Source: Halorubrum salsamenti (GTDB lineage Archaea; Halobacteriota; Halobacteria; Halobacteriales; Haloferacaceae). Taken from it: a stretch of 64,000 nt of DNA. The translations under genes were made by a program, and so were the position numbers. The stretch is taken from NCBI RefSeq assembly GCF_007671685.1, contig NZ_VCNL01000003.1:124001-188000 (forward strand). The letters are read 5' to 3'. Position 1 is the first letter of the stretch; each line of letters starts with the position of its first letter. A model generated the notes under the pieces. It was not told the origin of the DNA. It made no database searches and was given only the letters and a program-made list of their open reading frames with translations. This document shows, one piece after another, positions 27,202 through 29,484 of the stretch.

Positions 27202-28419
27202 TCAGCGGATGACGTCGAGTCCGTTGTTCTTCTCGGTCGGCTCGCTGCCACCGTCGGACTCCCACGCGCCGCCCTCGGTACTGCCCGAGACCGCCGCGTT
27301 GCCGGCTGTGCCGTTCGTCTCGGCCGCCCGCGAGCGCGAGTCGCCGAGGTCGTCAGCGTCCACCGCGGCGCGGGATTTGTCGGCCTGCTTCTGGGTGGAG
27401 GGGCCGAGGACCTGCGCGCTCTGGACACCCGTCATGATCGCCATGACGCGGACCTTCCCCTTGTACTCGTCCTGAATGCGGGCGCCCCAGATCACGTTGG
27501 CGCTCGCCTCCAGCCGTTCGGTGATGTTGTTCGCGATGCCCTCGGCCTCTTTGAGCGTGAGGTCCGGACCGCCCGTGATGTGGACGAGCCCGCCGGACGC
27601 ACCGCGGTAATCGACATCTAAGAGAGGGTGGTTCATCGCGTCGTTGACCACCTCTTGGGTCTTGTTCTTGTCCTGGGTCTCGCCGACGAGCATGACGGCG
27701 ACCCCGCCCTGGTTCATGATCGTCGACATGTCGGCGTAGTCGAGGTTGATGAGGCTCGGCTGGGTGATCGTCTCGGAGATCCCCTTGACCGTCTCCGCGA
27801 TGATCTGGTCCATCACGGAGAACGCCTTCCCGATCGGCAGGTTCGGCACGTAGTCGAGCAGCCGGTTGTTGTCGAGGACGATGATCGAGTCGGCCTCGTT
27901 GCGGAGGTCCTCTAACCCCTCTTCAGCCTTCACAGTCCGGGCGCGCTCGACGTTGAACGGGGTCGAGACCATCCCGACGACGATGGCGCCCTGATCCTTG
28001 GCGATCTTCGAGACGACGGGCGCGGCGCCGGTACCGGTGCCGCCGCCCATCCCGGCGGTGACGAAGACGAGGTCGGCGTCGCCGAGCACCTCTTTGATCG
28101 TCCCTTGGGCCATCTCGGTGGCGCGCTCGCCCATCTTGGGGTCGCCGCCGGCGCCGAGCCCCTGCGTGAGCGACTTGCCCACGAGGATCTTGGTGTCGGC
28201 CTCGACCATCTTGAGGTGCTGTTTGTCCGTGTTGATCGCGACGGTGTCGGCGCCGTCGACGCCGATGTTGTACAGCCGGTTGACCGTGTTGTTACCGGCG
28301 CCGCCGGCACCGACGATGACGATCCGGGGGTCCCCGAACTCGTCGTCGTCCATGTCGACATCCATGTCGCGCTTCTCCGCTTCCGCGTTGTCGAGGGCGT
28401 CCTGAACGAGATCTTGCAT
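27202..28419 (-). CDS. ftsZ2: Cell division tubulin homologue FtsZ2
   Basis: This 405-residue protein has GTP-binding [12 protein letters not shown] near residue 37 and the tubulin signature [11 protein letters not shown] near 125. The N-terminus ([18 protein letters not shown]) and the T7-loop region (NLDYADM) are those of haloarchaeal FtsZ2, not FtsZ1, which has a different N-terminal block. FtsZ2 drives constriction of the division ring. The C-terminal ~60 residues are disordered and end in a short hydrophobic NNGLDVIR tail, a plausible partner-binding peptide. The start lies four bases after the stop of cdrS, so they are one operon. Confidence 0.95.
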
Positions 28420-28423
28420 CAGT

Positions 28424-28603
28424 TTACACCTTCGCCCAATTGCGGTTGCGGCCGCGCTCGTCGCGCTCGCCGTCCTGTTCGTTTAACATGTCGCGGACGG
28501 CCGACCGGATCGCCTCGCTCCGGTTCGGAAACTCGCCCGTCTCGACCATCTGTTCGACTTCGTCGATCTGCTGTTTCGGGATTCGTAGTGTCACACGCTC
28601 CAT
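28424..28603 (-). CDS. cdrS: CdrS, short ribbon-helix-helix cell division regulator
   Basis: This 59-residue ORF begins [20 protein letters not shown] and continues [20 protein letters not shown]. That is a strand followed by two helices, the classic CopG/MetJ-type DNA-binding fold. The basic tail is NRNWAKV. It sits four bases upstream of ftsZ2, exactly as the known CdrS gene does. CdrS is described as a transcriptional regulator that controls division in Halobacterium and Haloferax. It is too short for usual gene-length cut-offs. GTAAGAC-type motifs upstream are candidates for autoregulation. It starts with ATG at 28603. Confidence 0.92.
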
Positions 28604-28615
28604 TGTATTCCCCCG

Positions 28616-28769
28616 GTAAGACGGCGACCACGCGACGCGCGTGTCTTACAGCGACGAATCGCCCGACGACGGAGGGTCACCCCGACTCGGACGGTCGCTG
28701 TAAGACGACCGTCTTACGCAATTGAAGTCACCGAGGCTACCATTATAAAACTACCGGAGGGTGTAAGAC
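28616..28769 (-). promoter_or_regulatory. cdrS-ftsZ2 promoter with GTAAGAC operator array
   Basis: Five copies of GTAAGAC or its complement lie at 28616-28622, 28643-28649, 28700-28706, 28711-28717 and 28763-28769. The middle pair forms a perfect 8-bp inverted repeat GTAAGACG-AC-CGTCTTAC. A TATA box on the minus strand (TTTTATAATG, 28741-28750) places transcription start near 28715-28720, on that inverted repeat. The fifth copy lies just upstream of the TATA box. The array lies between cdrL and cdrS, so CdrS, CdrL or both are the likely binding proteins. This is inference. Confidence 0.65.
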
Positions 28770-28799
28770 AGATCGTGAAAACGCCATAATTCGAACGTA

Positions 28800-28904
28800 T
28801 ACGCGGCCTTAAGCGACTATCAACGATCCTTCAGTACGTCGGCAGCGGGAGATACGCGGCCTTAAGCGACTATCAACGATCCTTCAGTACGTCGGCAGCG
28901 GGAG
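28800..28904 (+). repeat. Tandem duplication of 52 nt covering the 3' end of cdrL
   Basis: The block beginning TACGCGGCCTTAAGCGACTA occurs at 28800-28851 and again at 28853-28904, with no difference seen between copies. The second copy contains the last ten codons and stop of cdrL. The first copy is therefore an extra, non-coding duplicate of that gene end. Perfect identity means the duplication is recent or is under selection, for example as a transcription terminator. Confidence 0.9.
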
Positions 28905-29484
28905 TTCGGCGCCCGCACCCGGGACAGAACGCCCAGTCGGTCCGGAGCTCGTCACCGCATTCGCAGAACGCTCGATGCGACTGCTTTTCACCGCAGTTCG
29001 GGCAGTATACATGGTCAGAGGGAACGTTTTCACCACATCCGCCACAGGTATTTTCGCGCGTTTGCACGTCCGGATCCCCGGGCGTCTTACGAGTCTGCGC
29101 GTCGGCGTCCTCGGTCGTCTCACGCGTCACACTCGCGTCGTCCTCGTCGGCACCCGGAGCGTCGAGCGAGACGTTTACGTTGATATCCCCGGCGCTTCCG
29201 GGCGTATACGCCGTATGAGGTGCCGACGGAGCGGCCGATCGATCGCCGAGCCGCTCGTCCAACGCGGCGTCGAGCCGATCGGCGATGAGGTCGTCGATCC
29301 GCTCGGCCAGCGCGGCGTCGATCGACGCGTCCGACGCGGCCGTATCGCCGCCGTCTTCGTCCCCCTCGATCGCGCCGTCGAGGTGGGTCCGGAGGGCCTC
29401 TCGCATCACCTCGCTTTTGGAGGCGTCACACGCTTCCAGCCGCTCGACGAGGTCGTCGTCGGCCCGGAAGGTGATCTTGCTCAT
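28873..29484 (-). CDS. cdrL: CdrL-like ribbon-helix-helix/double zinc ribbon regulator
   Basis: The protein has 203 residues. N-terminal residues 1-40 (MSKITFRADDDLVERLEACD, then SKSEVMREALRTHL) form a CopG-type ribbon-helix-helix. A helical and disordered acidic middle follows. The C-terminus is a double zinc ribbon, CGGCGENV...CPNCGEKQ and CECGDEL...CPGCGRR. This architecture next to cdrS-ftsZ2 matches CdrL, reported as the longer partner of CdrS in controlling division; the name rests on that context. The start ATG lies behind a TATA-like GATACTTG. The 3' end is duplicated downstream. Confidence 0.8.
   Translation of the reverse strand: MSKITFRADDDLVERLEACDASKSEVMREALRTHLDGAIEGDEDGGDTAASDASIDAALAERIDDLIADRLDAALDERLGDRSAAPSAPHTAYTPGSAGDINVNVSLDAPGADEDDASVTRETTEDADAQTRKTPGDPDVQTRENTCGGCGENVPSDHVYCPNCGEKQSHRAFCECGDELRTDWAFCPGCGRRTPAADVLKDR

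Follow-up and report, generated by a model that had tools for sequence, protein, structure and literature searches.

A GTAAGAC box array at the cdrS-ftsZ2 promoter of Halobacteria, best read as a retuned ancestral self-operator of CdrS

Operators of the Arc/MetJ/CopG type consist of short subsites spaced by roughly one turn of the DNA helix, on which adjacent dimers lie near the promoter of a ribbon-helix-helix (RHH) gene. In the case of NikR, whose E. coli half-site is GTATGA, the half-sites are separated by roughly two turns and binding depends on nickel. In Halobacterium salinarum, the sole reproducible ChIP site of CdrL lies upstream of cdrS-ftsZ2 (Darnell et al. 2020, PMC7439475), and ChIP of CdrS in Haloferax volcanii returned 18 sites, including ftsZ1 and hisB/HVO_2987 (Liao et al. 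2021, PMC8406309). Both RHH operators and the contact of CdrL with this promoter are already known; the searchable literature, which is incomplete, yielded no description of the present box array, its class-wide conservation, the letters of the CdrS motif or the ancestral GTCNGAC ladders.

The window, that is the whole stretch of 64,000 nucleotides of Halorubrum salsamenti DNA that was analysed, contains five exact GTAAGAC/GTCTTAC boxes within 28616-28769 (154 bp), all of them housed in the 269-nt gap between cdrL and cdrS. The features of the locus are the following:

cdrL, 28873-29484, minus strand: regulator with an RHH domain and a double zinc ribbon, 203 aa
Box A, 28763-28769, GTAAGAC on the plus strand and GTCTTAC on the coding (minus) strand: separated from the TATA box by 13 nt, on its upstream side
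TATA box TTTATA, 28749-28744, minus strand: read from the sequence
Box B, 28711-28717, minus strand: reads GTAAGAC on the coding strand and lies where transcription is predicted to begin
Box C, 28700-28706, GTAAGAC on the plus strand and GTCTTAC on the coding (minus) strand: forms the core operator, 28700-28717, with box B
Box D, 28643-28649, minus strand: lies in the leader and reads GTAAGAC on the coding strand; conserved less than any other box
Box E, 28616-28622, GTAAGAC on the plus strand and GTCTTAC on the coding (minus) strand: 13 nt before the cdrS ATG
cdrS, 28424-28603, minus strand: RHH regulator, 59 aa
ftsZ2, 27202-28419, minus strand: second gene of the operon, four bases after cdrS

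On the coding strand, box A is followed by the TATA box, the pair B-C (GTAAGAC-GGTC-GTCTTAC), D, E, GGGGGAATACA and the ATG. Positions 28700-28717 read GTAAGACG-AC-CGTCTTAC, a perfect 8-bp inverted repeat. With the usual TATA spacing, the location of TTTATA predicts that transcription begins near 28717, where this repeat has its outer edge. The five copies of a 7-nt motif in 154 bases, the perfect inverted repeat over the expected start and the box just upstream of the TATA box that an earlier note on this DNA had claimed were all located. The box in its general form, GTANGAC, has symmetric GT...AC ends and an asymmetric position 3.

In the whole window, GTAAGAC occurs six times compared to 3.3 expected, the sixth copy being inside cdrL at 29084. 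The maximum number of copies per 154 bp was two in 200 dinucleotide shuffles, compared to five in the window, and the other 7-mers that reach at least five copies per 154 bp are GC-rich words present 23-213 times in the window, whereas GTAAGAC has just six copies. Chance clustering of the boxes was ruled out by these shuffles together with the conservation described below. As a separate observation, a perfect 53-bp tandem duplication was detected at 28799-28904, spanning the 3′ end and the stop codon of cdrL; it was not apparent in the upstream sequences of congeners.

When 391 Halobacteria genomes were scanned, the exact core GTAAGAC-N4-GTCTTAC was detected in 309 of them, belonging to 72 of 86 genera, and it was single-copy in 308 of these 309, the other one having two copies. 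The reversed control pattern was matched in one genome in the same scan, and the exact 18-bp core had zero copies in a viral sequence collection. Genera without the exact core mostly retained the boxes at a spacing of 5 nt, a few at 2, 3 or 6 nt, while a Haloquadratum group showed direct repeats in 10-bp steps. Of 131 loci, 104 had B and C 11 bp apart from start to start and 20 had them 12 bp apart, and upstream of cdrS in the genus-level loci GTAAGAC was observed 430 times against 3.7 expected. The search for the same motif upstream of cdrS-ftsZ2 in other haloarchaea, proposed in the earlier note as a check, was thus positive, and the array is kept in essentially every halobacterial genus sampled; lack of conservation at orthologous promoters, by which the note could have been refuted, is decisively contradicted.

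Within the genus, all five boxes were exact in 30 of 31 further loci, at nearly unchanged positions, and boxes A-C were 100% identical, compared with 83% identity at the positions around them. Among the 88 genus-level loci in which a TATA-like box was found, 84 have it 31-34 nt ahead of box B, a fixed distance that places B and C at the predicted start site. A counterpart of box A was present in most loci, either R-oriented at 52 bp or F-oriented at 62-65 bp before B. The array was found in Halobacterium salinarum DSM 3754 and in Haloferax denitrificans, and several Haloferax species had all or most of the boxes. In addition, Natrialbaceae-like leaders (loci L067 and L096-L115) carry a GTCTGAC box at −42 to −51 from the ATG, between D and E; this box is of the CdrS type defined below and lies within a conserved GCGTCTGACAGGGGCGCG stretch.

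If the boxes acted mainly in RNA, leader hairpins formed by B-C and D-E would control translation or decay of the cdrS-ftsZ2 mRNA. The arms of both pairs could pair, individual leaders show better folding than shuffled sequences (mean z −2.0, even with B-C left out), and some post-transcriptional control of the operon is suggested by ribosome data (PMC8303175). However, the RNAalifold consensus was reduced to the invariant B-C hairpin with no covariation support, and uncompensated arm changes were found (GTAAGAC with GTCATAC, direct repeats of GTAAGAC/GTATGAC, and D variants facing an unchanged E), whereas box A lies outside the transcript, upstream of the TATA box. RNA leader structure is therefore disfavoured as the constraint, and we consider a mainly RNA-based action highly improbable, although the better-than-shuffle folding makes a minor RNA role possible.

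Two RHH proteins are encoded at the locus, both scoring above the cut-off for Pfam RHH_1. CdrL is composed of an RHH domain, a middle region and the double zinc ribbon, and its recognition strand, K3-T5-R7, was invariant in 21 diverse sequences. CdrS begins with the same nine residues, MERVTLRIP, in all 131 loci compared, and its recognition strand, R3-T5-R7, was invariant. CdrS was detected in 387 of the 391 Halobacteria genomes, and CdrL in 377 of 391 by a profile search in which eight candidates per genome were scored and which a very divergent CdrL could escape.

A different box was found where CdrS is known to act. Just ahead of the ftsZ1 TATA region, 13 of 15 haloarchaeal genomes carry one or two GTCWGAC boxes, with GCAAGAC and other one-mismatch words also present in the same upstream sequences. 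The paired form GTCNGAC-N4-GTCNGAC was found 1-8 times per genome in all 15, whereas the control matched none. In Haloferax denitrificans, the pair occurs at three sites, the hisB divergent region, ftsZ1 and a DUF7093 gene. Because the ftsZ1 and hisB sites are published CdrS targets, this pair is the putative CdrS motif, and CdrS most likely reads GTCNGAC-N4-GTCNGAC. The array box differs from it at position 3 (GTANGAC versus GTCNGAC), and the array boxes have neither the GTCNGAC pair of the putative CdrS regulon sites nor an entry among the CdrS ChIP sites. Identity of the CdrS motif with the array was ruled out by the ftsZ1 boxes and the genome-wide GTCNGAC pairs.

Other occurrences of the CdrS-type pair were recorded. 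Paired GTCNGAC boxes at ftsZ1 are present in most haloarchaeal genera (L164-L178; L172, at G000:C1:163260, among them) and are probable CdrS sites. The pair also precedes similar hexapeptide/bactofilin-like genes (L284, at G000:C1:715806, L290 and L293) in the genome of the window, in H. salinarum and in a third family, the Pfam matches of these genes being below cut-off. It precedes the gene of the actin homolog volactin in one genus (L288) and the DUF7093 gene in three Haloferax genomes (L275, L279 and L282). HVO_1611 is presumably linked to halofilin, a point on which a literature search yielded nothing usable. The pairs before the hexapeptide/bactofilin-like genes suggest that cytoskeletal genes may belong to the CdrS regulon.

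The earlier note had found the layout to fit co-operative binding by RHH dimers, an interpretation that is supported in part. Paired subsites 11 bp apart beside two RHH genes fit such binding, while the motif that CdrS itself appears to read is GTCNGAC and not GTAAGAC. In the comparison with published ChIP data, also suggested there, CdrL has its site at this promoter, below base resolution, whereas the cdrS promoter (HVO_0582) is absent from the Haloferax CdrS list (PMC8406309 Table 1). The single reproducible CdrL site in H. salinarum matches the presence of one core operator per genome. The protein used for CdrS ChIP was expressed from a plasmid with an N-terminal tag (PMC8406309); such a tag adjoins the recognition strand, which is a caveat on the absence of the cdrS promoter from the list.

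The operator is not confined to genomes with a detectable CdrL. With genomes that were fragmented or lacked a detectable cdrS set aside, the core was retained in 11 genomes of seven genera without detectable CdrL, nine of them having the exact core (including one match counted without placing it relative to cdrS) and two having the 5-nt spacer. A single-sequence CdrL search in nine of the 11 gave no match, and in three of the seven genera a congener has CdrL. As these genomes keep the core, CdrL cannot be the sole reader, and that candidate was ruled out. Box D was exact in one of seven CdrL-less compared to 58 of 93 CdrL-bearing genus-level loci (Fisher p = 0.018, uncorrected for shared ancestry), a weak hint that box D may depend on CdrL.

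The comparison was extended to 37 loci of phylum members outside Halobacteria, which carry GTCNGAC-like boxes before the cdrS start. Box spacings of 11, 22, 33, 44 and 55 bp were represented by 46, 51, 37, 21 and 31 pairs, respectively, against about 0.1 expected for each, and the GTCNGAC ladders before cdrS-ftsZ2 reach up to eight units in exact 11-bp steps. CdrL has been reported missing outside Halobacteria (PMC7439475).

These ladders bear on the proposal that CdrS alone reads the array, in a true autoregulation like the one that probably operates in the non-halophilic relatives, with CdrL acting via CdrS or through other boxes. The CdrS-type arrays of the outgroup stand at the same operon, CdrS with its invariant recognition strand is nearly always present in Halobacteria, and the core persists in the 11 genomes without detectable CdrL. 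The subsite expected for CdrS is nevertheless GTCNGAC instead of GTANGAC, and the 18 Haloferax CdrS sites do not include the cdrS promoter despite the presence of boxes in Haloferax. Taking both sides together, we regard reading by CdrS alone as rather unlikely, although it deserves more weight than the other alternatives.

Heterodimers of CdrL and CdrS could also be envisaged, in which CdrL would recognise the GTA half, the GAC half being equal to half a CdrS site. A mixed dimer would suit three observations: one half of the symmetric CdrS-type box (GTC-N-GAC) is replaced in the array box, residue 3 of the recognition strand differs between the proteins (R in CdrS, K in CdrL), and the operator is nearly unique per genome. 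If true, an ancestral self-operator would have been turned into a private two-input switch, which would account for the presence of CdrS-type sites at several genes and for the near-uniqueness of the array operator. Against this, the same asymmetric boxes are kept in genomes without detectable CdrL, and asymmetric sites are also bound by other RHH dimers, so heterodimers appear to us improbable.

Our preferred reading, which we hold to be reasonably probable, is that the boxes are RHH-dimer subsites with CdrL as main reader and CdrS as ancestral and probably secondary reader, repression being exerted via B-C and tuning via A, D and E. While the boxes, their conservation and near-uniqueness, the TATA spacing and the outgroup ladder can be read directly from the genomes, we infer the identity of the reader and its binding. 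A CdrL homodimer would be symmetric whereas GTANGAC is asymmetric, and this would count against CdrL as main reader.

Archaeal sites at the transcription start usually repress. In the mechanism proposed, two RHH dimers would lie side by side on B and C, over the start site, and their occupancy would block transcription initiation; box A, before the TATA box, and the leader boxes D and E may raise occupancy or tune the output. For the CdrS site at ftsZ1, knock-down data suggest activation (PMC8406309). Given the location of B and C at the start site, and with box A placed before the TATA box much as the CdrS-type sites are at ftsZ1, we favour a model in which B-C mediates repression and A, D and E modulate it, a sign of regulation that we predict from sequence. 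Deletion of cdrS lowered ftsZ2 1.3-2.2-fold, and the published cdrL deletion strain carries second-site mutations (PMC7439475). The autorepression suggested in the earlier note is therefore unproven, as this decrease in ftsZ2 and the absence of the cdrS promoter from the CdrS list (PMC8406309) stand against it.

The array is most readily understood as an ancestral CdrS self-operator that was retuned in Halobacteria. In the simplest reading, self-regulation by CdrS would be ancestral, and in Halobacteria, where CdrL occurs, the array would have become sparser and changed by one letter. The retuning was probably for CdrL, whose recognition strand is K3-T5-R7 in place of the R3-T5-R7 of CdrS.

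Transcriptional control of archaeal division genes is poorly understood. For the published CdrL-cdrS-ftsZ2 circuit, the array offers a candidate operator at base level, directly testable with short DNA probes in the genetic systems already available. The analysis also yields a candidate motif for CdrS, distinct from the array, and both motifs can be used in any haloarchaeal genome. Moreover, an evolutionary change becomes traceable, from the 11-bp CdrS-type ladder of the relatives to the sparse, one-letter-shifted array of Halobacteria.

Among the described systems, the NikR half-site GTATGA is identical to letters one to six of a variant box found in this work, whereas no sign of metal control was found for CdrS. 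In sequence, CdrS matched NikR weakly (PDB 2bj1 and related), the RHH domain being common to both. The array is located at the same promoter as the CdrL target of PMC7439475, whose sole reproducible site corresponds to the one core operator per genome; the words motif and palindrome are unused in the main text of that paper, and the present analysis describes the array together with its conservation and its persistence where CdrL is not detected. The CdrS regulon motif (PMC8406309) likewise has RHH-type paired subsites with notable symmetry, and the putative CdrS-type pairs are spaced by 11 bp as are B and C, although the GTCNGAC subsite is usually upstream of promoters whereas the GTANGAC array covers the start site. 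Finally, while the array differs from the Arc/MetJ/CopG operators in its archaeal promoter, its fixed distance from box B to the TATA box and its asymmetric subsite, it shares with them subsites about one helical turn apart and the presence of RHH genes at the site.
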